The notes beneath the pieces were generated by a model. That model saw only the letters and a program-made list of their open reading frames with translations. It was not told the origin of the DNA and did not search any database. DNA of 64,000 bases from Apostichopus japonicus (Eukaryota > Echinodermata > Holothuroidea > Aspidochirotida > Stichopodidae): assembly GCF_037975245.1 (NCBI RefSeq), contig NC_092575.1, positions 19,611,841 to 19,675,840 of the forward strand, given 5' to 3'. Below, in pieces: positions 5,516 through 49,588 of the stretch (position 1 is the first letter of the stretch; every line of letters begins with the position of its first letter). The position numbers and the translations under genes were made by a program.

Positions 5516-8500
5516 TTATACACTATTATTGCATGTTCCTACCTCTGTCATTTCTTTCATGAGATCCGTATAACAGCCTTGTTTTTTCCTGATGATATCA
5601 CCCCATCGTGATGAACCCTTACATCGCGGGCAGATCCCCTCCACAGGTATTAACTCGGAAGGTTCATTCTGGAGAAAATGTTTTGCCAGACAGACGATGT
5701 GTGACATCACTCCGCAGTGAGGGTAGATGCATTCAACAGTCATATCATCTGACTGAAGATGAAGAATGAGCAACATTAAAATGGGAACGAAAAAGAAATT
5801 GTGAATTTTTTCCCCTGGTATACATAATTATTGGAAGCTGACATCGTACAAGAACGACCGTTTGCAAAATCGGGTTGCACACAATTTTCCTGTGGTTCAT
5901 AGACACTTCTTATGAACGTGTAAGCTTCATCTATGGCTTAGAAGCTTACCGATGACCATAGTCCAAGCAAGCTCAGTTCTAATTGGAAGCTCCTGGGTGG
6001 TGGGTGTAAGAGTTTTGCAGATCGCCGTACTAGAACGACAGTGCACATTGCAAGAAGATACAATGCATATATAAGATCATGCTCTGAAACAGATGGGAGA
6101 GCCAGACGCCTTGATCCTATCAGGATATTCTTTGAGAGCAAACCGGAACAGAAACAGAAAGCAGACACATATGTAAATTAGACAGATATACGCAAAATTT
6201 AAATGCTTCAAAATCGACGAATTGAAGTTGACTTCTCTCAAGTCATTGATGGGAAATATTACATGAAGGAAACTCTTAAAATGGGGAAACTTGTTACAAC
6301 TTCACTTTCTGCAATCCTATGTGTGAAACAACAGAGCAAAGAGATACTTTAACCGCTGGATACATCACTAAATGAATATTCAGTACCTTGATCTTCTTGA
6401 CGCAGACCTCACACCTGGAGCTCTGACTGAATGAAATACTCGGAAGATCATCACCATCAGTGTCTTCTTCATTATTATCGCTCTGTTTCTTCACCTGCAA
6501 TGAAAATGAAGAAAGATTGCCATGGAAACATAAAAAACAATCACCTCCTACTACCTACCCAAAAAACACCACCAATTACCCAACAACACCACCAATTACC
6601 CAACAACACCACCAATTACCCAACAACACCACCAATTACCCAACACCACCACCAATTACCCAACAACACCACCAATTACCCAACAACACCACCAATTACC
6701 TGACGAAGGAGTACTTTGAATGAATAGTCTAATGGCAGACAAATGGGGAAAAACAAACGTATTCAACATTGCAAGATGAAATCGTTTGGCTTGGTATAAA
6801 GTCAATATGTTTGCTGGGTAGCAATCAAATCGATCATCAAATTTAAGAGATTTCCATCTCGTGTTATGATTATATTCATCATGAGAAATTACTTTTCCAT
6901 ATGCGAAAATTCCCTAGTTGACCTTGTAGGCAAAACTCACTTCATCGTGACACACCTCCCCAAGATGTAAATTTAATTTCTTCATAGTATAAAGTTGTAA
7001 ACCATCCATTTTGTTCATAGAGACTTATAAAGTGCACAGATATGAGTATGAAAAGATGGGTGAAATGAAATTTAGCTAATATGTATGATGTCAATCCTGT
7101 TCGGTACAAGTATCTAACATTTCCAGTCAGATCGGTAAACGACAGCAAACAACTCATAACGCATACAAGACGACATAGACATTTTGAAGCAGTTGCGTGA
7201 TGTAAGATCCCTTCCAATGCTGAATGACTATGGAGTATTCATAATTTGACCATAGTTATTGTTATGGATACACCCCAGTTTAAAAGAGTAAACCGAAAAA
7301 CAAATTTGTCTGTGGGCACCTATAACATCACACCTGCTTGCTTCAAGTTGTCTTGTGTTACAGACCATGTCAACATAAAATGTCATCTAGAAAATGATAC
7401 ATAGGAATTGAATGCAAATCTCACCAGAATGCTTAGAAACTATGTTCCTATTTCATCGGTCAATTTTTTTTTTAAAGTACAGTATTAGATATATCAACAG
7501 ACCAGATTGGTATTAGTTCCCTATGTTCCATCACTGACATGTAGCATAATTTGTGATTTGTAGTAACTATACATCATGCAAGAAGACACAACTAGAGCGG
7601 GCTAAGCCCGCTGTCTTGTGCCCGAGGGGAAGAGGTGGGGAAGAGGGAGGGGTTACCTGATCCCCTTAATATACTGGGAAGGTATTAACCTTCTTCTATT
7701 ACCTTTTTACTTTTAATTTGACCATAGCCTATTGGTATGTGAGACGGTGGTTGCAAATCAACAGGGAAGTCTGTCCTGTATTCCTGTTTTAACCACTGCA
7801 CCGTCAGTGGCAGGCGCCGCCATGGAGTAGTCTGTAACATATTTGCCAGGACTCTTAATCGGTAGTTGAAGGCTTTTTCCGAGCTCTTTTTGCCAGTCAC
7901 ATGTTTTAATCTTCTGGATTTCTGTGGATGTTGCCAAGCCCACTCAAACTGAAAAGAACATGATGAATAATTGTGACAGTGGTGTGATATAATGAATAAC
8001 ACATAGCAAGAACTTTATAAATCACACTAGAATTTGTCATCACAGAGAAACATTAATTTTTACTGAAATGGTGGTGGCAACAGTAGGGAACTATGGAGCA
8101 TTGTGCTGCTTTTGTAGTTCATGAACACTGCTATGACTTGCCCTCGGCTGCCTTTTGCACGGCAACATGATGGCCTATGTGTCCATGCACGACTTGCAAA
8201 GTTTTCAGTACAGAGTACGCAATTATACAGAGTTACAGAAATGAGACAACGATGTCAATATTATTTTTTTCTGTCTTTCCCAAAGTTTACCAATCAGATC
8301 TCATGTTGACTAACTAAACAGCTTGCATTTTACCCCTCTGATACCTCAAAATGCAATGTGTGAAGGGATGATACCCCTTAACCCCCACAAGGGCCCCTAA
8401 GGAGGTCCCCTTGACCACCGTCAAGAGGGGTGATCGCTTCAGCATCAAGTTGCCCCAAAAAGGTACAGTAGGACACCCACTTTAAAAATTTGTACACCTA

Positions 8501-9649
8501 CATCTACCATTTCTGCCTCAATCCCTGCTTGCCCTGTGTACACCTATGATTGCTTTTCTTTTACAGAACTTCTATTCCTACAGGAGGGATAAAGTTGACA
8601 CAATTAACTTAAATTATGATTTATAGGGGTAAATAATTTAGAATACCAAATTCTCACTATGCTAGGCTTGGTCATCAGTATTCATCTCCTCAAATGAAGG
8701 ATGTACATTTTGACAAGCAAATCATGTGAAAAAAACTTTATTGATCTTGCTGAAAGTTTAACTTACACGTAGAGCAGCGATATCACTTGGAAACCCGTAT
8801 ACAATCAAAACCATATCCCTGGATGAAACAAAGGAAAGTAACACATGCATATAAGTACTGTACTTAACATGAGAGGAGAGGCTAAAATATCTCTCCACAA
8901 TGGAATGCAAGGAAATTTTAGCATGCTGAAATTACAGTTCTGATATTGCTGGTGTCCACCACAGGATATAATATCTCCTCCCAGATTTGACAACATTTGA
9001 TGAAATGACACAAAATATGATTTTCCATATGATATATCAGAAACAGATATACAACACTGATATTAATATCCGTTTGCCTGAAATTAATACCAGTCTCTGT
9101 TGTAAGTTTTTTTGTGTCACAAACTATGGTTTTCAAACTTGAACGTGTGCTGCAGCAGTGTTCACAGTGTTGTGCAACACTTTGTATAAATTTAGAAGGA
9201 GATTGCTTTCATATCTATTATCACAGACCTTGACGACCTTCTAGGAAATTTTACTGTAAAATCACTGTTTATTAGGTCACTCATGGTAACCACAACTCAT
9301 CCGCTGATTTTATTTTAATGTTTGAAAAGGCTTGTCAAAAGAAAGATTATATAAACATAGGTAGCAAAAATATTAAAAAAGGCCGTCAAATTTTGATCCC
9401 TAGCAATACAAGTCAGTTTCAAATTCAAAAACCGATTTACAAACTTAACACAGATTAACTAATACGTTAATATTACCATGGACCCTTTCCGCTAGTTCGT
9501 CTTGCACCGCCAAATTTCGAGCCCTTGTTGTGTTGAGTTACCCGTCTTCGAGGATCTACTGTGTACCCAATGTAGGCCCTACCTTTGTATTTGGGGTTTG
9601 TGCAATACAACAAGTAAACTCCATAAAAATTTTCAACCTCGAGAACCAT
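5516..9649 (-). CDS. SLX1: SLX1 structure-specific endonuclease subunit (GIY-YIG nuclease), five exons
   Basis: Spliced CDS (minus strand): 9649-9477, 8818-8767, 7948-7703, 6494-6387, 5752-5516. It totals 816 nt, 271 aa, close to the usual length of about 275. All introns are GT-AG and phases join exactly. Visible parts: the GIY-YIG core, with GVY at residues 10-12, YIG at 26-28 and the DPRRR arginines at 34-36; the conserved RFEWAWQHP block carrying the catalytic-type Glu at residue 77; and a C-terminal SLX1 zinc finger (CEVC at 185-188, then CIYPHC, SHIVCLA and CPRC at 234-237). SLX1 is the catalytic partner of SLX4 in the nucleus, cutting Holliday junctions and branched DNA. The ATG at 9649 is chosen because the GIY motif follows almost at once, as in relatives. 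The gene is divergent from NIPSNAP. All catalytic and metal-binding motifs look intact. Confidence 0.93.
5940..6180 (+). pseudogene. Stop-to-stop open frame antisense in SLX1 intron 4 (unknown coding remnant)
   Basis: Between a TAG ending at 5941 and a TAG ending at 6180 the plus strand stays open for about 79 codons without a start methionine. The translation is rich in R, K, D and E and looks protein-like, for example [20 protein letters not shown] and [19 protein letters not shown] do not recognise a family. It lies in the intron between SLX1 exons 4 and 5, opposite in sense. It could be a fragment of a mobile-element protein, an exon of a nested gene, or chance. Confidence 0.25.
6561..6700. 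repeat. 20-bp minisatellite, seven copies
   Basis: A 20-bp unit, CAACAACACCACCAATTACC, is repeated head to tail about seven times with one visible substitution (CAACACCACC). It lies in the SLX1 intron between exons 3 and 4, just upstream of exon 4 in transcript order. The open frames across it are a by-product of the repeat. Confidence 0.9.
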
Positions 9650-10819
9650 GTTTAACAGCAACAAATCTCTTTCCGACCTAACTTCGTTGTGGAATGTACC
9701 GTAGATTATCTGTGCTGGTTGAATTATACTGTATGTACTAGAACAACACTAGTTAGAGTAGCAGCTCCCTGGTACTACTGTAAAACGGCTTACGTATGAG
9801 TTCGCCATTGTAAAATCAGACAATGGTAAGCGGTGCTTTCCCTATTAGAGACCCTATGGTAGCCCTATGTGACAACAACGACCCTAGCCCTGTAACATTT
9901 ATTGTCACGTAGATTTATGCTTATGCTTCACAATGGTTTCAAAAGTATCGCAACTTGCATATACGTCTACTACACAAACTACGAATTCATATGAATTCCT
10001 TGGTACCAACGACCGAATGAAAACAGGGAAAAGTGAAAGAGCGTCAAATACTAGCTGAATCTGATCCTTCACCCGGCCTACTGTAAGGCGAGGTTTTAGT
10101 TGTATCAGGTTAACGCGTTTGTTACAGGTTAGCAAAAATAAAACTAGACACCGAACTCTCCTTCCAAATGCGCCACGGCAGATCATGTACAGAAGAGAGC
10201 TCAATTTGGGGATTGGGGTACAAACTCGAAGGTCGCATGCATGATCGAGTTACACGTTACTTTGGTTATGGGCAGAAAAATATGATCAAGCATCCCGACG
10301 AATGGACCCTCTCTGCATCATCATCATAAATTCAAGTGTTCAACTGTTGAACAATGTGGCACTTTTCAATCACTTTTTGTTCCCAACAAATTGGCACTTT
10401 CACGGTTTTCTCAGTTAATTTCTCAACAACAATTAAGGTCTGTTTGTAATACCAAAGCGAGGGCACTTTTCCATTACAGAAATCGCAAAGGGTGTTTTTT
10501 ATTAACAAGAATGACAGTTTTAAATTATGATATGGGGCCTTCAAGTTTTAACTATAAAACACAGAGGCCACGCGGCCACTTCTCTGCGTTCCCTTCCCAA
10601 AATGGTTGGCTCAAGCCGAAGCTGTAAGAAATAATTCTTGACATGTCAATCACGCAGAGTTGATATGGCGCACTTGCAATTTATGTGATAAGTAAATATA
10701 TCATACCTGGTGATCTACGTGGTGAGCTACTACTAACTACCACTACAATTGGTAACGTACGATCTTTAGAGGTTCTCGAGGTAGAGGAATACACCGTCCA
10801 TGATACACAAGATAGCAAA
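9650..10819. promoter_or_regulatory. Shared upstream region of divergent SLX1 and NIPSNAP
   Basis: The 1.17 kb between the SLX1 start (minus, 9649) and NIPSNAP start (plus, 10820) must hold both promoters and 5' UTRs unless there are unrecognised non-coding first exons. No TATA box or CpG-island-like run stands out. The frame of NIPSNAP exon 1 is open upstream to 10685, but the first in-frame ATG is 10820. Regulatory function is inferred from position only. Confidence 0.4.
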
Positions 10820-13510
10820 ATGGCACTGAAATCTCTAAGAGTAGTTGCTGAAATGAGAGGCTTTCTCGGCAAACTCTGCTGCTCAGAGTCACTAGGTCCA
10901 ACACGATGTTTCAGCAGGTAATATTATAATCCGTTCCTAGGTCTTGCCTAGGCCTAGGTTATGTTAGGCCTGGACCTATTCACTAACGTTGCAGTAGCAC
11001 GACAAAGACGAACAGATGACTGAGTTTGCCTAATGTAGCCTAGGCTAAGAGTCATGCTGTGGGGCATTCTATCTTTGTCCAACTAATGCCATGGCTGAGG
11101 GCGCAGCTTGGTAAAGGTTGGCTATGTTAAGCATATGACCTAAAATTATGTCCAGTTACATCAATTAGATCTACTGTAGGCCCTTTAGCTAATAGTATTA
11201 CTTATGAAAACTAAAGGACCTAGGCAAGCAACGAATCACAGGCATAAAATCATAAGGAATAGCATTAGCAGCTGTGTCTTTCAGTTGCTCAACGTTTACA
11301 TCAATATACACCTTAGCTTATAATAGGCAGCACAGTACCCCAATTCTTAAACTTATATCAGAGCCATAGGCTTCCAGATTTGGCAATAACCATTTTAAGT
11401 AAGCCTGTTTCGTCTATTCACTTCAAGGAAATGGCCCCAAAATTTAATGAAAGGGGTCCTACTGTCTGCAGATCATTGTTCCAGACTAGCACCAAATGTT
11501 TGAAAAAGGCCTGCATAGCCTTAATATTAGATGTTCCTAGAAACAGGTGGAGCATGACTCTGAATAACACCTGTACACATTGTCATCGGTGAAGTATAGG
11601 GTGCGTCGGTATATTGATATACCAGGTATAGCCTACCTGATATTTCATTCATACCCATACTGATGGTATTGCAAACTGACATAAACGAATGAACCGAAAA
11701 TACCAGCTATATACGAAACAAACCTTGAACACCCAGTAAAAATAATACCCGATTAAAATACCGACCCAGATATAGTAAACACCAACTCAAAGAAATTTCA
11801 GCTGCTACTGTTTATCCTGTATACCTTACCACCCACCCCCCCCCATAGTCCCCAAATGTTAAACTTCTTGCTGCACAATCTTAGCACTTGCACCTGTTGC
11901 TTGTATTGTACCGGACAAAAGGTCAACGAAGGGATACACTGATATGTTTCTTGTGTTTTCACTTTCAAAAATGGTTTACTCCTAATCAGTCAATCACTAG
12001 CACGGATGGGTAACATTTACACAGGATAATTTGAAACAGTCTACGTACGGATGGGGGGGGGGCGCGGTGGGCTCTGTGGGGAGGTATAGAATGAAGCACA
12101 GCACCTGTTGGAGGTTTTGAAACATGTGCTTCGGTACGCAGGGAAAAGGGATTGGATGGCATGTGTGTGCACATTAATAACAATACATGTATGCGTTTTT
12201 GTCTCTAGATTGGCAGTTTCTGTTAGTGATGCAATGGGCTCTAAGAGAAGCCCGCGCTGGTAAAACGTGCTTGAAGTAGGGTTAAGACACGCGAGTAAAA
12301 TACAGACATTTTTGCATTCCCAGCTTTCTGTTCCAACTGTCAGAGAGATTGGCAAAGTTTCATCTAATTTCTAAAACAATCCATAATAAACTAATTGATG
12401 GGATAATCTGGTCTCTATCTCACTACTTTCACAATTCCACAGAGCTTTTGTGGTTCTATAATGTCAATCTCTTTACATTTGAGAATACCATTTCAAAGAA
12501 AGGAATGCCCCAAAGTTCTTTTTTACAGACTGCTACTTGACAATTTTCATGTTGTTTGTGGTTGAGCTGGGCCCCGTAGTGGAGTGTACTGAACTGTACG
12601 TTCGTGTTGAAATGAAAGACACATAAACAACACTGATTTTTTGTACTTTATTTTATTTTTAATCAAAAATTTAAATAAGTTGCTGCAAAAGAAAAAACCC
12701 CAAAATGGGAAAGTTGTCGTCATAAAACTGCAAATACATTTGTAGGCTAGACTACAGTTTCCATACGGTTCATGCTAGTGTTTGATAATACAGTTGTCAG
12801 TTAACGCTGGAAGTTGCAGTTGGTAATAACAGGTATTCGTCGGTGGGTATATCGGTATCTGTTTTTGCTTATAAATACCAAGGCACCCTATTGCAGTACA
12901 TGCCTGTTACATGTAGATCTATCTGTCGTTTTTTACAAAATATGTCAGTGTTTGTTGAGTTGTTTATATAATTAAACAAACCTTTCATTTTCTCATTCTT
13001 TATGATGCCCTAAAATGTGTCCATCATTACTCAATAAAATTGCAACCTTTTTTTTTTCTCAGGTCAATTCCTGCTATGGTCAGTGGCCCAGGTAAATGGA
13101 TTGACAAACTTCTCCATGTCAAACAAGTAGAGCCAGCAACAGAATCTCACTCAAAAGCTCTTACCAACAAGGAATTTGTTTTTGAAATGCAAGGTATGAT
13201 AAAAACTCAGTAGCATCGGATTGATTCACACCGACTATTGAAGAAATCAGTAATGTTTCCATATATATATCTCTAGAGTAAGGCAAAAATATGTCACCAA
13301 AACAGAACTAGTATTGTCCGATACAGGTGACAATCCCCTACAGTAGAATTACGACCTTCCTTATTGGTTTCGAACCTCTGGACATACAATCAGCGTCCAT
13401 AACTTAGTGGTGAGGTGTCCGCATATAAAGCGGGAGGCCGGGGTTCAAACCCCGGTGGAGGCTGGAAGTTTTTTCACTGTTCTTGATTTTCCAACTCATT
13501 ACGATTTCAA

Positions 13511-13586
<76 letters not shown>

Positions 13587-16500
13587 GTAGTTATCTTCTT
13601 GTGTATGTTGTATTTTGTACTTCCAGTGGTCTGTATAGAAAGACATGTCAGGGGTGATACTTTTTTTTGTATTAAGAGATTTGTCTGGAGGAATATGAAA
13701 GGCATCTGTTTAATACTGCTTCATATCACATTAGATATTAGGGTAACCTCTAAACCATTTGTGTACATTACCTCAATGTGGAGTTTAATAGGCAAATATC
13801 ATTTCTCTATGTCACTGAAAGGAGGCGGGAGGGCAGGAGGGAGGGGTGTGTGTAGGTGGTTCATCAGAACGTAGTTAATTTATGTACAACTTCACCGATA
13901 TGTTTTCTCTTCCTTGCCTCAACAGTTCATAATATTAAGCCAGATAGAATGGGAGATTACATCACCTTAGCGTAAGTGTTAGAAGATGTATACAAGTATT
14001 AAAGAAGTATATATAGGGCAGGTCCAAGCTATTGTATCCCTAGAAGCCAAATTTCAAACTTTACTGAAACACCCTAAATGTGGTGTCATGTTAAAGCTGA
14101 ATTATTGAAGTTTCAGATTTTCATAATTTTTTTGAATTTTTTTGCCTATTCAAACAATTACAGCCAGCTAATTTGCATAAATTCAAATTGCAGTGTGACG
14201 TACGGGACATTTGAAATCCTATTTTGCTGCCAGCAATATGAACTTATTGAATATAAGTTATGTGGGACATGATACACCGTTCCTTCCAATAATTTTGACA
14301 TATTATGTTTGGGGGTTCATTAATTAAATATGCTAATTAGCTAGTGTCCAAATACTGATGTCCCGTACGTCACAATTTTCAGCACTTTTTTCAAGTTTTG
14401 ATATATGGAGGAACAATTTTTTTTTTTGTGATATTCTATAAAGTTCTAATTAAGAACATTGCTCAACAATATCCATCCCCAAAAAATTGAAATAATATTC
14501 ACTGCAAATCTAATTATCAAATTTAAAAATGTGACGTACGGGACAAAATGTGACGTACGGGACATAGTGTGGTGGAAACCCTGTATTTATACATAATAAA
14601 CATGCATGGGCTCTAATGGGGACCTCTACTGGAAACCTTCCAACGCTTACAAGTTTATTTTGTTGAAAGCTGGTAGTTGCAACTTATAATCCCTGCATGC
14701 CTGAAGAGCACATCATGGCACCAAATAAACTATTGACTGATGACCACCAACAGCCCGGGTGTTGTTTGACTATTGGGAAGTCAATTGTGCGTGTGGGGGA
14801 TACAGAATCATCTACAATGCTATGCAACAACATTGACACTGAATGAGGACGACTTCAAGAATGTTGAGTTTGCATTTCAAAATTTCGTAGGCCTATTGTG
14901 AAGTGTGACTATGATAATGTGCAACTATGTTCTTGTTTCCTGAACTTAGATAGTAGACATTGAGATTTTTAGTTACAAGTGTAGAGTTTCGCTCGCCCAA
15001 TTTTGCATATAGGGCAATCACTCATGAGTTTGTTCAATAACCAGTATTAGGTCTATAGAGTTTTCTTTGTTGTACTATGTAGTTTCATAGATGGACATTA
15101 CGTGGCATTACTGTGGACATTTTGGTATACACGTTGGTATTTTGATTTTTGAATGGGATGGATCATATTTCAACTTCAGGGTCATTAGTGGGGAGTATGA
15201 TACAGTGTTGTACAGTATATACCAATTTTTAAACAGTTTTGCACCAAAACTTTGCACCTTGAATCATTTGTGGTCTAAAAAAGCTAGAATTGATGTTATG
15301 AGTACTTGATGTATGTGTAGAGTAGATTAATACTTTATGCATTCCATGTTTTATGTGGAATGATCTCACAAGTACAGTCACTGCTCTTTTCCGTATCCCA
15401 GAAAGAAGGAAATATGGCATGAAATTACCAATGACATTGTTCTGGCATATCCAAATTAATGATTTTATGTAGAAATCAGCCTGTTATGGTACATTCAGGA
15501 ATAAAAATATGAGTTTTCATAGTCAATTTGTATATGGACAAATTGTCCCGTACGTCACATGTCCCGTACGTCACAGGACAATTTTCATTTGTGTAACCAC
15601 TGTACTGGAATGGCTTCATATTTTTTTCTAATATGTTACAGCTTAGCCCTTGGAAGGTTAGGCTATTCACTAGTTATAACAGCTTGATCACTGCCCTCCT
15701 AATTTCAGAGCGGTTTCAGCTTTGCTCTTTAGTAAAAAAAACACAAAATTCTCTGGTCCCGTACATCACACTGCACATTAATTAAGATGGGACCTAATTA
15801 AAGCAAGTGTAGGAAATCTTCATGAGTTTGTAATAAAGTAGCAGCAATAACAAATATGAAAACCTGAAAAAGTTTCTGGAAAATAGATTTTATATAACGT
15901 TTAGACAAATTTAAGTCTCTGAAATGTCCCGTACGTCACAGTTCAAATAGCTTGGACCTGCCCTATACCTTATTTATAAATTGCTGTCTGTATTTATCCG
16001 ATTTCATTCCAGTGTGTATGATAACATGGTTACATGCACAGTAGGCTAGTTGCATCTCTTACTATCTCACCACTACATGTTATTCACCAGTGGTGAGATG
16101 TTGTACTCTATCTATGTAATAGTCACATGGTCAACAGAGTTCAACAGGTCAAACTTGGCCATACTTGTGCACACACCAAAATATCCAAATGACTGAAAAT
16201 GTGTTATGTGCACGTCTTTTAAATTTTTGTGGGAAACTCTGGATTGTTTAAATTGAGTTCTGAACAAAATTTGCTGGAAATTTGTCTTTTTGGGCTAGTT
16301 TGCCAAAAGGAAAATATTTATGAAAGGGTCCCATATAGGAAGTAATAATTGTGTCAATCAATTGTTTGAATGAATATTTAGAGTCTATTTACATAAAATG
16401 TCAAAGGTCATGAGGTTACTAAACATTTAAGTGTCATGTATGTTCTTCAAACTGTGTGAGTCAGAGAGGATGACATCATACTGTTCATATTATATACTGT

Positions 16501-19500
16501 ACCTATAGTTTGTTAACCATTACTATAGGTTAGGTGCTATTTGGTATTTGGAAAAGAAAGGTACATTCTCAAGATTTAAAGCATGTGATTTGACATCCAT
16601 GCAAAGAGAAAAAGACATTATACTTGCAGCACAACCAGCTGCTTTAAAAAGATATGTTAACAGCTCATGAGAGAATTCTTCCTCTTTGGTCAAATCCACA
16701 GACTAGTAACCTATTTTTGTAATCATTGAGCAACAAGTTTGAAAAATTTGGTTACAATTTATCAACATATGTGTTAACAGCTGAGTTAGTGATCATCAAG
16801 GGCAATTGAGCTAAAATAGAAAGTCTTGGTTTGATTTTAACTATGTCAGTTTACAAATCATCTAGCCACTCTCGCAAACACGTTGCATTGAGAGAAAACT
16901 TCTTAAGAGAGAGACCAGTGACATCTTAGCAAATATTAAATGTTTCACATTCTTAAGGACAAGTCAACAACAATTTTACCACAGATCTAAGCAAATAATC
17001 AATGTTTCACATGCTAAGAACATCTACCATGGATAAGATCACAGACCAGCTATCTTGTGATCAACTTTCTGGGTAAGGTACGAGCAATCATGACCAGAGA
17101 TAGGAACATGGGTTTTCAACTAGCATCGTAGAATATTTCATATCTTCCATATTTAAGTCTCACATTGTCTGCCCACTAGAATATCCCATTAATTTGCTCA
17201 TCAATACTTTCAATACCTGTCTCTTTGCAATTTTTTACGTCAACATCTACAGTATCTCCTGTGCAGACAATGCGCTATGTATACGATACTTCAAATCTCA
17301 TGAATTCTCAATTACATCTTGGCTTTATCAAATTTATACATCTACTGTAAGTTGTGGTTAATTTCTAACTGTTCACTGTACAGGAAATTTAAGCACATGT
17401 TTCAAATAGAATTTACAAGAAAAAAAAAACAACAAGAAAGGTTGATATATTTCAATTATTTCCCCCCGTTTTGTTGTGTTTTCAGAGAGCATCATCTAAC
17501 TAGAGTACATGAGATGGAACATTATCCATGCAGACTGTTTGGAAGTTGGAGTACAGCATTTGGGCAACAAGATCAAGCCGGTAATTATTTAACAATTTGC
17601 ATTGCAAATATCATTTACCACACAAATTATGACACAACAGTCTGATAAAGTTGCTGTTCATTGCAAACCTTAATGGTAGTAAACGTAAATCAATTGTACT
17701 TGATATATGAAATTAGTTGTGCCTGTTTCCTTTAAATTGCCAGAGCATAATTTCAAACACAACCCAAAGTTCATTATTAAGGTCGGTGCCTTTCGATCAT
17801 AAGGTCCCGAGTTCAAGTCACTCCAAGATTAATGTATGTTGTCCACTTACAGAGTTGTTGACAATTCATAATCATGGACGTTAAATATGAATCTAATAGA
17901 CTTGACTTCGGTCAGCTTGCGGCTTTGCTAAGCCAATGATGGTTTCTTCGCAAATTCCTGCTTGCAGGAGGATCTAAATACATTAATGCTGTTTTGAAAT
18001 GTTTTCTAACTTGCTGTGTCTTTCTCACAACATGACACAGAGATAAAAGAAAAAAGAAGAGAACAAAACCCAAAACAATAACAACATGCTACTGTGAACT
18101 CTTGGCAATTTGGCAGGTTAAGGAAAGAGTTTGTGACACAAACAGTGGGAGGGGGTGGGATGGAGAGGGCCAGGCAATTATTTATTTGTGGTAGTCTGGT
18201 CAAACCCAAATCAGCATCTATATAACTTCCAGCAATGCCACTGGATGACTAGTGTCTGACATTAAATTAAATAAAAATTAATTAAGATTAGAATATATAC
18301 CTCTTTAATTGACATTTATTAGAAAATCGTTCAGATAGCAAGATACTATCTTGTCAAGAAACAAAAAAACCATTAATTCTTTATTTGATGAATCTGGTCA
18401 TTTCAACAATTTCCGAGGAAAGTTAAAGTGTTGACTCCTTTTCCAGTTTAAGATTTTTTTCTGGAAAATTTTGAAATGGCACTGAAGTTATTATATTTAT
18501 TAGTTTCAACAATTATATGCAAAATGACTTTTTGTCAATATTTGAGCAACATAAAAAATTTCCTGAAAAATGTTGATATTATTAGATTGTACCATTTCAA
18601 ATATTTTATGCAAAATATGAAATTGTTGACCTCTTTCCAAGCTTGCAGTTAAACAATTTCCTGGAAAACTTAGGAAATGACCACTTACATTTCACCTCAT
18701 CATGTCCCCCAAAAAACCCTGAAAAAGGCAACTTGGTATAGTTAGATGTTCTTGTCTCGATGCGATGGTACATATAAGCTGTCATAATTTTGAATTATAT
18801 TTTAACCAATCAAAAGTCATGAATCTGTCTGCATCTCTCTTACAGTTCATGTCTGGGTATATGAAGATGGCTACAGATCTGTCAAACATATGTCAGAGCT
18901 GCTTTGGGAAGATAAGGTAGAGTAGATAACTGTTAATATTTTCACAGGGGTCAAAGGTCAACCATTTATGACCTCATGGTTTCATGCTGATCATATTCTG
19001 CACAGTTGAACAGGCTTTTAACCACTGACTAGTGATGATGCCAGTTTCCGTTTCTTTCACTTAAATGGTGAACGGCTGTTTTTCGGAAACATTCACGATC
19101 TGTTAGTTGTCTCCATGCTTACTTTCCAAGGGAAAAACCGCTAATTGCAAAGTGTTCCATCATTTTTTTCTTTATTTCCATGTGTTGAGATGGCGTACTT
19201 GGCCCTCAAATTCTGTGAATTTCCAAATTTTACTATAATACTGAAGCCCAAAAAATAAGAAAAAACCTTGAAGAGTCAAAACCCATTTCCTGTACCTTTT
19301 GGACAAATGACTTGTTTATTAGAGAAATGCAAGGAAGCATTCAATTAACTGTTCATGGCAGTTTGTTTTCATTTCCATAATAAGATAGAAACAATCCTAG
19401 CATATATAACTTCCAGCAATGCCACTGGTATTTCAATAATGTAATACAGTACAAAAGTGATCAAGAATTCTTTCTGCCATGTAAATTTAACACAAGCTTT

Positions 19501-22500
19501 CAGTTTGCACACAGTTCTAAGCAAAAGTAAGAGAAGGTTCCCCCCAGGCGTGTTGTCGTACACCTACCCACCCCCCCAACCCCACCCCTGGATCTGCCCG
19601 CACCTGACTCTGATGCTGTTTTTGACCTAATTTTCGATCGCAAATGTACAAACAGTACAAGCAGTAATCTGTTGCACCAGGTAAATCTGATTTCATGGGA
19701 ATTAAGGATCTTGATTGTCATTAGTGCAGTCTAATATTGACAATATATGACATGTTCCTCTCAAGTCTTTGTGTGGTTAGAAATTTTACCCTTACAGACA
19801 TGTACTAATAAGATGATCTTGTAACTCGTATTACACTCTTTATGAGCGAAAAATTGAAATGGATTCTGTGTCGGTGGGGCTCTCCAACAGAAGGAGCTGA
19901 CACATCGGTCCTGGTGTGCGTAATCTGTTCTATTTACAGATCTCCGAATCAAAAGCAAATCTTTCTGGCGCTGTAACATATCTCTGCTTCAAAGTAACAT
20001 GATCATGTGAATAATATGATAATAAATTTACATTAGATATAACACAAGTTAATGCGCTTAAAAAGAATAAGTCTGACTTGAAGATTTAAAAATATGTTTT
20101 CAAATGTGCTCTTCTTTAGTAAATTGTGAATGCATGTGCATGGTTTATGATAATTATGGTGCTGTTATGACCACCAGCTTTGTCTAGTTTCGCAGAACTA
20201 GATTGGACCAATATGACAGTTTACCTGTACAGATCTCTGAATCAAAAGCAAATTTTTCGTTGCTGTAAACATATCTCTGCATCAGAGTAGCATGATCATG
20301 TGAATAATATGATAATAAATTTACATTAGATACAACACGAGTTAATCCTCTTAAAAAGAATAAGTCTGACTCGAAGATTCGAAAAATATGTGTTTTAAAA
20401 GTGCTCTTCTTTAGTAAATTGTGAATGCATGTGCATGGTTTATAATAATTATGATGCTGTTATGACCACCAGCTTTGTCGAGTTTTGCAGAACTAGATTG
20501 GACCAATATGAGAGCGCCCTCTATTAATTTTTGGCTGTGGCTGGAGAGCAACTTTAATAAAGTTCAGGAACCTCCCCTACATTGTGAAAGCAATACAGTT
20601 TGTGGACAGACTGGAATGTACTGTTGATTTAAGGGGAAGGCTTAAATCTAACCGGAATATTTCAATGGAACTGAAATGCTCCACTCTCAGAGGAGTACGT
20701 CAAGTTATAACAGTGATAAAACAGGAGTAGTCCAAATGGAACCATGAACATTTGACTTCTCAATTTGACAGGAATAATTGTGTTTAAACAAAGGATAGTC
20801 CAGAGTTTTTTTTATGTTAATGATAGATGACCCGAAAAGTACGAAAGGACACCTTACCAAAGCAGTGTCTCTATGGGAGGGGTGAGGGGGGGGTACATGG
20901 TCCACCTATGGGATGGTGACATGGAAGCAGAATCTGTGATGTCACAACCATGTTTGTACTGTTTAAAAACTTTTATTGATCTCCTGGTAAGTTGCCAATG
21001 TTATTTTCTTTCAACCTGTAAATCAGATATAAATAATTGCTTTGAAGTGTTGTTTTGCATTTTTTTTATTCATTCTTCATTAATATGAAGAACTTCAGGA
21101 CTATTCTTTTTAAGAGGCACCTTCCCCATGAAACAAAGAAAAGGTGCAGTTTTAACAGCACGGTATGCTTTTAACAGGAAATTCCTGGAATGCTCCATTT
21201 TTAACAGGAATATTTGCAGTACAAGAAGAAAAGAGGAGAGATGTTAGTTAGCAGGAGTAATGAACTTTTACTGCCTTTCAGTTTCTGGGGACAGCCACCC
21301 GAGAGAGAACCAGGCAACCTCTACGAACTCCGTTCCTACCACCTTAGGGTCAGTATTTTGTCAAATATCAATATATGATTGTAGATCAAAGTGTGTGTAT
21401 GCAGCATTCCGATAAATCGGCTAAACCAGATGGGACACAGGAGCCATCTCCCCCATTCCCCCCTGGCACTGTCAGTCGTTAGTGAAGGTTACAAATGGTC
21501 ACTGGTCAAATTCATCTTACCCCCTGGAACAGTTTGGATACCCCTGCCAAGAATAAGTAGTTATGACATCAACAAGATAATAAATGATAGACTAAGTTTC
21601 GAAACTAGTTTTATTCCTTGATACTTAGATTTCAAATAGAAAAGAATTGTTTGTATAATTTGACATTTTTTCATCGATGGATCCAGGAAGTCGATTTTTG
21701 ACAGAGTATATTATATTTTTTTGTAGGTCATGAATCATATTTAGATGATTTGCTGTCTTGTAGTTAGGACAGTAGAATTAGAAGGTAGAGATTAATTTAT
21801 CGTTGTCATTCTTTGAGGAGTGGTTGTCATTTTTGCCGTGATTTATCTTGACTCCTTTGTACATATATGTCTTTCACAGCCTGGGACCCTTATCGAATGG
21901 GCAAATAACTGGTGAGTAGTTTATACAAAGTTTTCAGTGAGGTCACGTGATCCTTTGTCGCAGTTATTTTCCTTTGAGAACATGTATTGGATGGACCAGA
22001 GTAAAAAAACTTGTATAGCCATTTGCAAAATTCTGTATGAAAGCATGTTGAATGGAGTTTTGTATTTATGGCAGCAGTGGAAAAGTTGACTGTACTAGTG
22101 AAATGATATGAAAACAGTTTGTTAATTTTGAATGAGTCTTCCTGCAGTGTAGAATGACGGCTGTGGGACCCGGGGGGACAGAGAATGGAAACGGGATGAT
22201 GAGCAAAGTAAGATGGAAGTAACCGGAGGTTGTGTTGGAAAACTAAACTGAAATCAAATAGGACGGAAGAGAGTGGCAAGTTCTCTTGAAGTTTAAACCA
22301 CCCGTGATAAAAAAATTGTGAATTTCGCATTGTGTCGAAAAAATACTTCAACCAAATCGTTCTGTTCCTAATATACAATGAAACTAATGTAATTGTGATA
22401 CAAAACCAGCTACACTCAGCTGGAAGAGCTGATATAGCTGATAAAAGTATGTAAGATGTTCATTATAGGAACGGAGATTAAGACCAGACGCATGATAGAG

Positions 22501-25500
22501 AATACATTAACCCCCCCCCCAAACCCTTATACCTTGGAATGAAGATGTTGGCTACCCTTCCCCAGGAGGCTCTTCCCTGCCAATCTGTCTAAACCCTATC
22601 ATCTGTTTAATATTCATTCCCAAATAATTGTTAATCCAGGTCAAGAGGGATTAGTCATCGTAGAGAGCAGGATGAGGCAGTAGCCGGTATGTTCTGTCAG
22701 ATTGGAGACTTGTACGTAGTTCACCACCTTTGGGGTGAGTAACGTCCATTTCCATACTTTGAATGTTTAATGAACAGTCCGCAATCTATGGGGCGCAATC
22801 CAAAACTAGGTGTGTCAACAAGGGATCGATTAACCGTTTTTAGAAGCATCAAGGCCGTTGTTAGTGCTGGCTTTCATGTATTCCAAGCATTGTTTTAGAA
22901 AGGGCGACATTTGGTGGGTCGTGGCTCAGTGCCCATGCAAGATCATGAAGTCATGGACCTACAAATTTGTGGACAGCTATCCCGAATCGCTATCTCTTGT
23001 AATAGTTCTGAACTACCAGGATTTGAAGATTTGAGTGATATCAAGCCATTTAAAAGTGGTATTAAGGTCAGGTGTATAGAAGGGTGACGTGAAGTTTTAG
23101 AAATAGTGTTCTAGGTGAGATTGCCATTCATCCTTCTCGAATAAAGAGGTAAATTATTATCATCTTTTAAAATTGCTAGAAGTGTTCTGTAAGTCTATCT
23201 GTAAGATGCATAAAGCCTGCAATGAACACTCACTCCCCCCTCCCCCCAAAAAAAAGAAAAAAAGGGAAGCTAATTGAATGAAGTATAAAGGTAAGCATCT
23301 TTGGATCAAGATTGTGGTGGTGGGGAAGTGAAGGGGGGGGTAGATAACTGAGTAGTACCTGTTGAGGATGTTGGGTACTAGTGGATAGAGAAAGACTGGT
23401 TGCTTGGGTTGAACTTTTCTTCAGTAAACAAAATTGCAAAATGTTTTGCATGAAATCTGTTTCATCTCTTCATCCATGTATCAGTTTTAGTGATGACATT
23501 TTTTAAAATCTCTCTACAGCTTACAAGGATCTGCAGACGAGGAAGGACATCCGTGAAGCTGCCTGGAGAAAGCCTGGGTGGGATGAATGTGTTGCCTACA
23601 CAGGTAAGGGTTATCCAGTTATGGTCAATTGAATTCAGTTTACATTGCAGTGTCTTAGACAAAAATTGTTACATAGGTACATGTATCAAGCAGTAATACT
23701 ATGGAGCAGAAATCTATTCTGGGAGAAATGATTTTATTTCCAAGTGGAGTTCAAAGGAAACCTACGAGTTATGCCAAACTCCACACAAACCTTACCCTTC
23801 CAACTTAATAGCTTGCATAACATTTTTTTCCCTCTCAACTGCTTGGATTGCTCAGCCAGTTGGGACAAATTCCTTGTTAATACCTCTCTGAACTGTCTTC
23901 CCATATCATGCTTTCAAAGCACTGGTAATGAGATTACAAACAGTTCCTAACCATTTATCTGATAGAAACATGATATTCATACTGTCAGTACCAGTGCCCC
24001 GAAGCCGGACATGACAGTACAGATAGAAAAAAATTGTCCCAACTACAGGGTTCGTACGGGTGCTTGAAAACCTTGAAAATGCTTGAATTTGATTGGTCAG
24101 GTTTCAAGGCCTTGAAAGTACTTGATTTCTTATATTTTTGGAAAATGTCATTGAAAAGTGCTTGAAATTTAACATGCTTAATGCAAAACATATTTTGTAT
24201 GTAATTGTTACACAATAATTACCGTGGAATAGTCAAATTGTGACAAACAAAAAACTTAAAAGATTGTCTTAGTTGTCAAAAAAATTACGAGTGAGGGTCG
24301 CGCACAATCACCGCAAACTTCTCGCACAGTCACTGGCAAATTACGGCCTCCACTAAGCAATTTCAGTACCAGCGACAATTACCAAAACTCCCCACAAATC
24401 TCCGACCACATGGTAGGCTATCTTCACACTGAGTCAACATGGAAATCTAACCTAGCCATCTGTTTATTCGCTCAATTGTGTCGCAAATAAAGAATAAAAA
24501 TATCCATGAAAAACTTCAATCTTCGACCACATTTTAGCCTAACAATCACACTAAGTCAATGGGAAATGTAGCCTAACCATCGGTTTGGTTTGCCCCCCAA
24601 ATAAACTTTGCGTAGCTTTGTTTACACACTTCCTTGCTGCTATCCTCGCGCGCATGGTAGCCGAACACCACACATAGTCAACGGGAAAATCTAGCCTAAG
24701 CATCTCTTTATTTGCTGAAATTGTGACGCAGTTAGCTAGAACTAAAATGTCTGTGAAATACTGCAACCTTCGACCACATGTTAGCCTAACAGCCACACTA
24801 AGTCGATGGGAAATGTAGACAACTATCGGTTTGCAAAAAAAAAAAAAAAAAATGCGTAGCTTTGTTTACAATTTCAATTTACTGAAAATCGGCAGTTGTT
24901 TGGATGGTACTCAGTGTGCTATGTCTTAAAGAGGGAATGTTGTATTTTACGTACATCGTTGCTGTGGCGATGGATTGAAGGTTTTAACTTTGATTACTTT
25001 TCAGCAGTATATAATGGTTTCGTATTTGGTGGTGATTTCATCCACACACGTTGTTTTCTATGTGTTTCTACATGTTTTCTATTTCAGTTGATGGGTTGTT
25101 GGTTTTTCGTTATATATTTGGTGTCTGACGTTATTTGCTAAACGATCGCAAATTTTTGCGATTAAAATTTTAATGAATTTGCTTTAAGGTCGCAGCACTA
25201 GGAAGAGGGTACTTGTGCTTACTTTATCCTATTAAATGCTTACAGCCATTTCCTTAAACAGCATGTTGAATTTTAGAAAAGAGCACCCCTAAACCTTAAG
25301 AAAAAAAACCCTCGTAAATTCATTAAGAGGGTCGTTTTTAACTTTTCATTTTCCAAAATTGCCCCCAAAGCCAAATCTTAATTTCTACCCTGGTTGTAAC
25401 CAGGGGCGTATCCAGGATTTCCCAATAGGGGGGGGGTGCCAGGCATGAATGATCGCCGTCCTGGGGGATGGGTCTAAGGGGAGGGGGTGTACAATTTTTG

Positions 25501-31799: not shown

Positions 31800-34700
31800 T
31801 CATTGAGATAGTGAATGTCTTTGTCTGCGAAGCGCGTCTCCCGATGAAGTGTAAGCAACATAATTCGTGCAATTTGCTGAATTGTTTTTCACGTTATATC
31901 GCACGTTCTCGTGATTTCCAGCTACGATTGCTACCTTACTCTCCCCAACACATTCTTCTTGCATCGCAGTTAAATAATCTCGAAAATATCTCAAATCCTT
32001 TTCAAATTCTGGTCCATACTCATCCACCATTTGCCAAAAGGTTTCATTAAAGTGTGTATATAGCATCATGTCCGCTTTATTCAGTTCTTGTATTTGTTCT
32101 CTGCTGCTGGAATCAGCCTGTAGAGGATTTGGTTGTTCACGCATCTTAAGGTACAAAATATCCTCAAACTTCCAACAAAGTAGACGTTTTAAAAGGATCA
32201 ACGATTCATCGAAATATTCTGTAATTAAAACTAAACTGAAAAGTTTTGAATACTCCTCAATCTTCTTCTGTACATACGCCGTATTTTGTAAATGAGTATA
32301 CTCGGAGGAATATTCTATGTCTCTTATTTGCTGGTTGCAAATACTTGTAGCAGACGATCCGAGTTTGTTTCGAAACTTCAAAAATGCTTTCACTGGATCG
32401 GGTTCCAAGTGGAGAAACTTCTTCACCTTGTTAACATGATGAAAATATTGAAATGAGGATAACCATTGGTCGACGGGATGACGTAATATTGTTATGTAAG
32501 ATGTGGATGGATTCATTAGTTGGCGAAGTTCTTTCCAGTCTGGTCGCATGTGAACGTTTGTGATGTTAAACTGGTATCTTTTGTAATCTCCAACAGCTAC
32601 TCCAATGGGAGGTAAGAGGCTCTTTAGCGGCATACCTTTCAATCTACGAAACACGTGTCCTGCAGACGACTTGTTGCTTAAGATGAAAGACAGGTTATTT
32701 GACACACCGTATCTGTTCAAGATATTACGCAAAGTAGTACTACCTGTTTTGTGTGTCTTAAGAAAGGCTATGTTTCCATTCGGTTGACAAATTGAGACGT
32801 TGCCCCTATGTGGAACATTCAGCCATGATCTGTCGAGGCTCTGGGGGCTTGTGTAACTAAATTATATGAAGAAAAAAAACAGAGAGAAATTTCTTTCTAA
32901 GTTGTATGTCTGTGTGAAATGTGGTATAGCAACTTAAAGAGGACGTCTAGACGATCGTGTGGGGCGGGCAGGGGGAAGAGACGGGAGTGCGGAATTGGGT
33001 TTGGATATTCTCCTTAACCGGTCGGTGAAATGAATTGCATTTTAGTAGAAGAAAACCGTACAACCATTCTACATAATCTTTCCAAAATCGATCATATTTG
33101 CAAACATCCCATTCGATTTCTACCCAGTCTGAACCATGCTTGCCCATAAATAAAACATATAAGAAGCCCTTCATGTAAGTCCATGGGGGAGGGGTACGTT
33201 CTGTAAAGGAACCAGTGGTGTTGGAGGGGGCGGGAAGGTCGGATGATTTTCCATCATTCGGTCAGGCTCAGCAAAACTCTCTTTTAACTCATATTGCTTG
33301 CTGAAGTGCATCTTTACAACCACTTTGAGATTTTAAATTTACGTCTAACAAGAGGAGCGCAACCAACGCCCACCTTTGGAATAAAACCATGTCTGCTTCG
33401 ACTTCCATGAAGTTAACACCATTCCATGCGTCCTGTGGAAATCCCATCGGCTATATCAGATTCAGTTTATCCACCTCAATGAATCCAACATGCCCACGTG
33501 AGGCATCTGCAAACATGACCAAGTTGGAAGATTAACTTAAAATTCCTATATACTCGTTATCCCCTCAAACCAATATTGAATGTGCATTTGCTGTCTTATG
33601 TGACTGAAAGCATGCAAACATCAACATTTCTGGTTAGATCAATCAGGGAGTTGTTCCCTGGATAAGCAGGTCCACCCCTCCACTGACAAGCAGAATATTA
33701 CAACAACAAACAAATCCCTGTGTACAGCATATAAACATATGGCATGTACATATGCGGTACAACCACAACAAATATTTATTGTTTGAAAAGTTGCCAAACA
33801 TTTGACAACCTCAGAACCCCTCAGCCTTACCAAAATTTCTCAAAGGAGACCTTTCCCTAAGAACTCTTCCCTGATAAACAATATCTCAAACACCTTCTCT
33901 CATTCTCACCACCCCCCCTCCCCAAACCCTGCCCACCCTAAAATGGTGTCTAACATATCAGGAAAAGGGATACATACATTCCAAAGCTACAAATTACTTA
34001 CTTGAATATTTGTCTGATGTCTTTTTCATAGGTAAAGAAATTTGGCGTGTACTTTGACGTCATCTCAGAATTTAAGGCAAACAACAATGAAAATGACACA
34101 ATGAGGACACCAATGGCGACATTAACTTCTCTCTGTTGGAAAGAACAAACACAGAGACTCACTTTAATGTGCAGGGTATACGTGTTACTATGCGTCTCAC
34201 TGTCACGTGTTTGAAATTGATATTATTGTATGTAGATACTGGCTAGTGGTGGGCGAAGTTGTTATTGGTGGGTGAAATATTGAAGGGGGGGGGGGATTGG
34301 GGAGGTTAGAAGAGTACACCGTAGACAAGGGCAACTTTGGGCTTCAATGGTATATATTCAATGGTATTTATACAACACCTAATTATATTCCGGCCATTTG
34401 ATTGGTCAATTGCACGTCGATTGCATGCAAAATCCGCTCTATTGCACTCTATAAAATAGAACCATGTGTTATACTTTTTTGATAGCACTTTTTTCAATGG
34501 TAAGAGAGCAGAGAAACCTGTCTGTTCAAAACAATCTGTTGCATGAGTGCATTTTACATCCAATTATTTCCAAATTTGAAGGTGTTGTATAAAACAAATA
34601 ATGAATGGTTTCCATTCGTGCAATAGTGCAAATATTTCATTTGTTGAAAGATGTAATTTGTTCCATTCCATCTTTCAACTAATGAAATATTTGCACTATT

Positions 34701-47372: not shown

Positions 47373-49588
47373 CACTGTAAAAAAAAAAAACAATCGTAAA
47401 GGTTTGTCTTGATTTGGATTATTGTTTACAGAGGGACTGGATTTTCTCAGTTAAGATCACATTACGATTTTTCTAAAACCAACGTAGAGCGCAAGGTTTC
47501 CTCGTTTGTACGGGTAAGAAAGTAGAACATTAGTTGGATGTACGGGTAAGAAAGTAGAACATTAGTTGGATGAACGAAATCTATCAGAACGCTTTCTTAC
47601 TGAATACACGGATAACGTTTGACCAGGATATCCGCATAGTAACTCTTACTCTGTCTAAGAGGTCATGCTGAGTCTGCAAGCTTTGTTTGTTTTGACAAAA
47701 GCGCACATATACGATTCTGTGTTTGTTTCTGTTTCTGTTAATTCATTTCATTTCATGCCATTTCATTTATTTCGTCTATACATAAGAACAATAGAACAAA
47801 GTGGTATAGTATAAATAGGACACTAGAAAAACAATAGTAGTTTATCGAGCTAGCGACCAAAAATAACAAAAAAACAAAGAAAGAAGGTAACAATTAAGAG
47901 TAGAGAAAAATTAACATGAGATAATTAAATACTCGTTATCTCGGGTATCACAGCAGTGCTATAGTAACAATGCGTGGACAATCTTATTTCCTTAAGACTA
48001 GGGCTCTCTTTAACGGCCAAAGTTTACGTATTCCAGCCTCTTTTATAGTCCTAGGATAGAAACTATACTGAAAAGCACGATGATTATGTGGAATTTTAGT
48101 ATAGCGGACACGCCTCCCTGGTTTCAAGAAGGGATTAGTCTCGTTTGAGACTGCAACTAGGCCATTCATAATTTGATAAAAAAAATATGAGTCTGGCCCT
48201 TTCCTTCTTTCTATGAGGGTTCCCATTTCAAAGTCTTTAAGAACTCAGCGACTCTGGATTGCCTACGAAAATCACGAGTTACAAAACGTGCTGCCTTCCT
48301 TTGATTTTTTTTTCTATTTTATCTTGGTCTGAGATAATATAAGGGTCCCAAATCTGAGCTGCATATTCAAGAGTAGACCGACACATAGACATATAGACCA
48401 ATTCACGTAATTCTGGTGGGCAAGAGCGCAAATTCCTATTCAGGAAGCCTAGGGTTCTGCTGGTCTTAGTGCATATATTATCAATATGTGTAGAGAAAGA
48501 TAAATTCTCACTAAACAGGATACCAAGATAAGGTTGCGCAGTGACGCACTCTGGGTTGTGTGTGACAAGAAACTATTGATCCAACAGGAGAGATCTCCCA
48601 GAAATCCATAATGGCCGATCTTGACCAGCAATTTACGATGAGAAACTACATCAATTACCTTAGAACAATCAAAAATATTTGTATCAACCTGGGTATTCTT
48701 ATCATAATAGTGATCTAAATCTGAAAGAGTCATGAGAAACTGAGTAGTACAAGAACGACCTCTTCTAAAACCATGTTGTAGGTCTGTTAAAATGGCATGA
48801 TTGTCCAAATGATCCATTATGTGTTTCACCACTATGTGTTCTAACAACTTCGAACAGACACTGAGAGACTGGACGGTGATCGGAGTTTTAAAAAGGAGAA
48901 AATTATTAGAGACTAATTTTGTCAGTTTCAAACACACTCTCCAAGTTACACTTGTACTAAAGCAGGCCACCCCCCCCCCACCACATATATGGTGCTTGTT
49001 CCATGTGTTTGTTATCGTTAGTGATACATATGCAATACGTATACTGTACATTGTTAAATTGTCATTGATTATCTTTGCATGGAATGATTTGTTTGGTTTT
49101 AATAAATATTTCTTAATTCTTACTTTAAAATCAAGTTGTGTATCATTTTCAGCCTCACAGCTTTTACTATTCATTGTTATTATTCTGTTCATCAATCGTA
49201 AAACACATCTGATCTGTTGCTGTTTTTTTTTCTTAAGGCAGAGAATTCCATCATACACATAATTTTCAACGCAAATATATGTACTGTGTAAATAGTACTC
49301 TAAATAGATAATTGGAAGATAATCTCGAAATTCTCAATAAGGAAGACTAAAACTGAATCCGTTGACGGTAACTCTAAAAGCGGCAATATTCCAGGAAACA
49401 TTTGCGTTTGTTAAGGAGAAAACACCTTCGGTTACAGCAACTCAATAATGATGAAACACGCAAAACAGGATAAACGTTTAACCAAGATACGGTTAACATC
49501 TCATGGTTTAATCTGAGGAAACGTGACTTTTCGTTGCAGCAACTTTAAACCATTTTCCAGTAAACGTTTACGATTTTATTTTACAGTG
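47373..49588. mobile_element. 2.2-kb TIR element (CACTGTAAAA ends, TA flanks) hosting a LINE
   Basis: The left end CACTGTAAAA (47373, followed by poly-A and CAATCGTAAA) and the right end TTTTACAGTG (finishing 49588, preceded by CGTTTACGATTTTA) are inverted relative to each other, with TA immediately outside on both sides. Inside, most of the sequence from about 47740 to 48900 is a minus-strand LINE fragment, apparently inserted later. No transposase seen. Confidence 0.6.
47740..48900 (-). pseudogene. Non-LTR retrotransposon (LINE) reverse transcriptase remnant
   Basis: Minus-strand translation shows RT fingers/palm sequence: ITVQSLSVCSKLLEHIVVKH, HGFRRGRSCTTQ, the motif-A region NIFDCSKVIDVVSHRKLLVK and WINSFLSHTTQ. 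Immediately after HTTQ the sequence jumps, in another frame, to YLGILFSENLSFSTHIDN and RSTLEYAAQIWDPYI, normally well C-terminal. The catalytic motif C region (xADD) is therefore deleted. The C-terminal FYPRTIKEAGIRKLWP block follows at about 48000. A tail of ATGAA-type words lies at about 47745-47775. Dead copy, truncated at its 5' end. Confidence 0.85.

Follow-up and report, generated by a model that had tools for sequence, protein, structure and literature searches.

The locus described here raises the question of why a transposon lying in an intron carries eight copies of one 16-bp motif, and whether these serve the mobilisation of the element or the host. A preliminary description of the window (the whole 64-kb stretch of DNA analysed) had reported perfect 18-bp terminal inverted repeats (TIRs) with TATA on both flanks, and the sequence itself, together with a search of the window at up to three mismatches, confirmed both. 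Specifically, the element spans 14016..15963 (1,948 bp); its left TIR, GGGCAGGTCCAAGCTATT (14016..14033, + strand), is matched by a perfect inverse at the right end (15946..15963, - strand), and no other match was found in the window. The tips of the element read GGGCAGG. The TATA sequences at 14012..14015 and 15964..15967 represent the target site duplication (TSD). Since TATA is palindromic, this copy alone leaves the TSD length ambiguous, and the length of 4 bp was established from other copies. In the search for a transposase gene, a six-frame scan of positions 9801-19762 detected no Pfam domain over the element, the only match being below threshold (E 0.037), and the longest stop-to-stop frame within the element is 84 amino acids. 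We classify the element as a non-autonomous DNA transposon of the cut-and-paste type, belonging to a multicopy family of the sea cucumber Apostichopus japonicus.

Its residence in an intron, also proposed beforehand, was borne out by the structure of the host gene. Six exons located by eye on the + strand, at 10820-10917 (the first, taken from its ATG), 13063-13193, 13926-13971, 17486-17580, 18846-18916 and 21208-21348, have AG/GT borders and keep one reading frame when joined. The protein predicted from these exons and a further exon piece (23520-23603) matches Pfam NIPSNAP (E 4.9e-14). The transposon lies in intron 3 of this NIPSNAP gene, beginning 44 bp past the end of exon 3, and exon 4 is the next exon after it. 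Intron 2 contains a tRNA-Tyr-like sequence with anticodon ATA (13392-13464; Rfam tRNA, 42.4 bits), which could be either a genuine tRNA gene or a repeat of tRNA origin. Upstream of NIPSNAP, and head to head with it, is a gene for the SLX1 structure-specific endonuclease (5516-9748, - strand), recognised by GIY-YIG and SLX1_C pieces. Elsewhere in the window, two galactose-3-O-sulfotransferase frames about 30 kb apart (31800-32861 and 61740-62903, - strand; Pfam E 1.2e-56 and 5.1e-55) are apparently a duplication, and a frame at 48449-49333 (- strand) resembles, by eye, a non-LTR reverse transcriptase in its C-terminal part, with only a weak, unrelated Pfam match.

A motif search allowing up to three mismatches found exactly eight 16-mers in the window, seven of them exact and one, at 15755, with two mismatches. 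Shuffled sequence of the same 64 kb gave a mean of 0.26, and eight were reached in none of 100 shuffles, so that the places, the orientations and the more-than-chance density first described, as well as the lack of further copies in the window, all stand. On the left side, sites a (14194..14209, +), b (14359..14374, -), c (14530..14545, +) and d (14549..14564, +) start 178, 343, 514 and 533 bp from the left end; on the right side, sites h (15925..15940, -), g (15755..15770, -), f (15560..15575, -) and e (15544..15559, -) lie 23, 193, 388 and 404 bp from the right end. Each half of the element therefore shows, from the outside inwards, a single site, a second single site and a tandem pair (c and d with a 19-bp period, e and f with a 16-bp period). 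In order and spacing, this agrees with the mirrored arrangement originally claimed; the orientation of site b does not fit it, and this outlying orientation is fixed in all 41 eight-site copies of the family. All eight sites fall within 550 bp of an end, leaving a central 979 bp without sites, a gap with a probability of 0.018 for eight random positions.

The 16-mer is a quasi-palindrome, with a self-complementary core that reaches TGTnnCGTACGnnACA and comprises 12 of the 16 positions; as a single strand, no stable hairpin fold was found for it. In the window copy, 15 of the 16 motif CpGs are kept, and the remainder of the element has a CpG observed/expected ratio of 0.25. Site g, the only inexact one, reads exactly TGTGACGTACGGGACC in 37 of the 41 eight-site copies; the C at its last base is thus the family norm, and its CpG-to-TpG change is not. 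Comparing the two halves outside the sites, the best local score in inverted orientation was 34 (shuffles averaged 25.1, and 1 of 200 scored as high), and no significance was obtained in direct orientation (65 of 200 shuffles). This left-right homology is too weak to support an ancestral inverted duplication.

The whole genome assembly (671,581,487 bases, 671.6 Mb, in 35 contigs) was then considered. The exact TIR occurs at 204 places and the exact 16-mer at 636, with none for the reversed-pattern control of either. A DNA similarity search with the element returned 145 matching pieces from 40 scored of 159 candidates. Of 30 loci excised, 23 contained both ends, and seven with one end outside the excised stretch were dropped; 20 further regions taken from listed pairs of exact TIRs all had both ends, giving 43 complete copies in total. 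An exact 4-bp TSD, with distinct flanks, is present in 36 of them (seven have no exact one). The TSD is TNNA-like, starting with T in 25 and ending with A in 24 of the 36. All eight sites, at up to three mismatches, were found in 41 of the 43 copies, in the order + - + + - - - -, and the other two copies have seven. Exact 16-mers number one in two copies and 4 to 7 in the others; copies usually have no more than seven, as site g carries a terminal C throughout the family. The two pair periods and the 23-bp distance of site h from the right end are invariant in all 41 eight-site copies; the 178-bp distance of site a from the left end is kept in 35, the 165-bp spacing between a and b in 37, the 195 bp between f and g in 34 and the 170 bp between g and h in 36.

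The centre of the element is more variable. A unit of about 250 bp, single in the window copy (15038..15308, +), gives 1 to 6 matches per copy among the 43, and in many relatives, for example L028, L033 and L034, it is tandemly repeated at about 245-255 bp per unit. This tandem unit is a possible seed of satellite DNA. In addition, one locus (L003, C16:30365957-30370882) shows a second exact TIR 749 bp from its own left end, suggesting a neighbouring or nested partial copy.

Two outcomes would have separated the array from the element: TIR copies devoid of 16-mers, and 16-mers away from TIRs. Neither was seen, given the 43 complete copies described above and the finding that all 100 listed 16-mers (of 636) have an exact TIR no more than 4,017 bp away. 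With C or G as its next base, a context foreign to the family norm, the 16-mer is present at two genome places, both inside family copies. The TIR followed by A or C occurs at one place, and the TIR followed by G at 95. One TIR, at C4:225697, has no exact 16-mer nearby among the matches listed. In conclusion, the exact 16-mer in the A. japonicus genome is essentially confined to this transposon family.

The single place with the TIR followed by A or C turned out to be an older copy, L055, of 1,973 bp and with the TSD AAAA, in which five of the eight sites are recognisable at up to four mismatches in unchanged positions. Searching with L055 revealed another, L056, in which the full set of eight sites is preserved, again arranged + - + + - - - - and at similar distances, and which has no exact TSD. 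Outside the sites, both are 63-66% identical to the family. Compared with the ends of the main family, L056 is identical at 86/96 motif non-CpG, 25/32 motif CpG and 526/830 other positions, and L055 at 78/90, 18/30 and 553/833, respectively. Three old fragments (L057, L058 and L059) retain five, three and three sites.

An autonomous relative, the search for which had been suggested as a check, was looked for and not found among the TIR pairs listed (to about C10). Specifically, of the 100 TIR places listed out of 204, 44 pair, with spans of 1,828-6,452 bp, only two of which exceed 3,157 bp. These two, L032 and L033, contain nested insertions and the tandem unit; L033 holds no frame of at least 120 amino acids and L032 one of 130, and the L033 insert gave no Pfam match. 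In a viral contig collection, the exact 16-mer and the exact TIR were each found at 0 places. A genome contig collection yielded one two-site match (L001), on a Streptomyces jeddahensis contig, where two 14-bp motif cores 28 bp apart lie inside a 21-bp tandem repeat; we regard it as a coincidence.

The aligned copies allow the demands of transposition to be told from those of the host. If a site is required for jumping, it is expected to lack variants inherited through several jumps and to decay normally once a copy has landed; if it benefits the host, it is expected to persist after insertion. Variants present in at least two of the 43 aligned copies (the left side has 41 rows and the right side 43) were taken as shared. 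Such variants affect 2 of 96 non-CpG motif positions, against 313 of 1,215 other non-CpG positions (Fisher P 1.2e-9), and 7 of 32 motif CpG positions, against 7 of 12 others (P 0.03), the Fisher tests assuming independence of linked positions. The eight site slots together hold 9 shared-variant positions, where random 16-bp blocks average 27.2 (P 0.006). The TIR holds none in 36 positions, a figure biased by the choice of copies by similarity or exact TIR, which leaves decayed copies under-sampled.

Private changes gave a different picture. At CpGs they are equally frequent in the motif (16 of 1,341 cells, 1.19%) and elsewhere (6 of 492, 1.22%; P 0.61), and at non-CpG positions they are rarer in the motif (12 of 4,024 cells, 0.30%, against 346 of 50,138, 0.69%; P 0.0013). 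Random-block sampling of all private changes was not significant (P 0.15), and a version of the whole comparison with 23 copies showed the same pattern as that with 43. Since the sites avoid shared variants and their CpGs gain private changes as often as CpGs elsewhere, the evidence on balance favours a constraint on the sites that acts mainly during transposition. This supports recognition sites for a mobilising protein, against a host motif kept after insertion. The lower private rate at non-CpG positions leans the other way and leaves room for some protection after insertion, but sister copies missing from the sample, by making inherited variants look private, could produce it as well.

On these grounds, we infer that the element is probably mobilised by cutting at the TIR tips, with its eight 16-mers as putative binding sites of the transposase or of an accessory protein of an autonomous relative. 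As the 16-mer is nearly palindromic, the protein would probably bind as a dimer, and the tandem pairs together with the spread sites may gather several molecules at each end, raising their local concentration and aiding the pairing of the ends. Copies that lose sites would stay in place and decay freely, seldom spawning new copies, and inherited variants would for that reason avoid the sites. A neutral origin of the array, by which a short repeat multiplied once in an ancestor and is common to the copies by descent, would be in keeping with the derivation of all copies from few ancestors and with the two pairs as simple tandem duplications; it would not lead shared variants to avoid the sites, nor leave the sites better conserved than the remainder in the two old copies, and we give it hardly any credence. 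The preliminary description had left a choice between transposase-binding sites and a motif for a host factor. Its transposon with integral 16-mers has held up, with a constraint carried through transposition; the part that invoked a host factor and a CRE half-site has not. If the 16-mers were sites of a host DNA-binding protein, for example of CRE type, and the element a regulatory module kept by the host, the TGACGTAC within the motif, which we take to resemble a CRE half-site, the insertion in a gene 44 bp from a splice donor and the somewhat rarer private non-CpG changes in the sites would all be accounted for. The equal private changes at CpGs, however, indicate no clear upkeep of the sites after insertion, the conserved unit is the whole 16-bp quasi-palindrome, the eight-site order is constant across copies with unrelated flanks, and the sites of a host factor would be expected elsewhere too, and not in one family only. 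We therefore judge this explanation very unlikely.

The transposition-linked constraint would be explained equally well if the sites served mobilisation through a host architectural or chromatin factor that pairs the ends, in place of the transposon's own protein. The 165-195 bp spacings, near what we take to be one nucleosome repeat, are consistent with such a factor, but so long a site would be odd without host sites, and no exact 16-mer was found outside the family among the matches listed; this possibility appears quite unlikely. Also improbable is a long-range end complex in which the sites stand about one nucleosome apart and mobilisation depends on chromatin phasing and on CpG methylation over 550 bp per end. 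The inter-unit spacings of 165, 169, 195 and 170 bp, the tandem pair on each inner flank and the two CpGs per site are the features behind this proposal, and to our knowledge such a mode is undescribed for animal transposons.

Recognition of the 16-mers by the transposase or its accessory protein remains our preferred reading. Setting shared against private variants makes it possible, without an experiment, to tell what a transposon requires to jump from what its host retains, and here it points to a specific candidate 16-bp recognition site in an echinoderm transposon. This site is a ready test substrate if a partner protein is found. In addition, whether mobilisation in an animal is blocked by methylation could be tested concretely on the CpG-bearing sites, and the central unit, with its 1 to 6 repeats, provides a natural series in which to follow the seeding of tandem repeats by transposons.

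Among the matches listed in literature searches, the papers with exact strings contain only TIR 10-mers, never the motif 14-mers, and none has a title on transposons; nor did any listed paper treat this family, and no paper was found that combines GGGCAGGT with TIR, transposon and TSD. Comparison with known systems places the element among those with repeated subterminal motifs. In plants, En/Spm (CACTA) elements carry many subterminal 12-bp motifs in both orientations, bound by the accessory protein TNPA, and the sea cucumber element resembles them in its multiple subterminal copies in both orientations. Unlike En/Spm, with a 3-bp TSD and CACTA tips, it has a 4-bp TSD and GGGCAGG tips. TTAA is the defining target of piggyBac and Kolobok, and both were rejected because TTAA is found in 0 of 36 exact TSDs; furthermore, the sea cucumber ends begin with GGG, unlike those of piggyBac (CC).

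With piggyBac and piggyBat, the element does share a 4-bp TSD (PMC10045372, in the excerpt available) and palindrome-like repeats inside the ends. As described in the accessible part of PMC11707139, these systems have imperfect-palindrome end repeats to which a dimer binds through a pair of cysteine-rich domains, each monomer contributing one, and this by analogy suggests that the sea cucumber quasi-palindrome may likewise be read by a dimer. Since extra piggyBat sites can restrain activity (PMC11707139, same part), some of the eight sites are possibly inhibitory. The length of the TSD also fits Sola2, for which the available text of PMC3627910 gives AT-rich 4-bp TSDs (AWWT in three families, ATAT, AAAT or ATTT in others), but the sequence here is mostly TNNA, not AWWT. 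Tc1/mariner, with its TA dinucleotide (PMC10045372, in the same excerpt), was rejected on the basis of 4-bp TSDs without TA at a fixed place, such as TGGA, AAGA and ACCA. The TNNA-like 4-bp TSD rules out PIF/Harbinger and ISL2EU as well, whose TSD is TWA or AT according to the portion of PMC4482050 consulted, and the same portion assigns 5-8 bp to hAT elements, which are ruled out by the 4 bp found here. A parallel to the array itself is offered by hAT elements: in Herves, a repeated subterminal motif is needed and sufficient for transposase binding, and Ac, Tol2 and Tag1 are cited alongside it as having subterminal transposase-binding repeats (PMC3143072, in the sections available). As in Herves, the sea cucumber motif is repeated near both ends; unlike the Herves motif, which in those sections is 8 bp long and confined to the outer 100 bp, it is 16 bp long and spread over 550 bp. 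In conclusion, judged by the literature (an unpublished library entry may exist), the family is a new one of a known kind; its sites are long, invariant, quasi-palindromic and set far apart.
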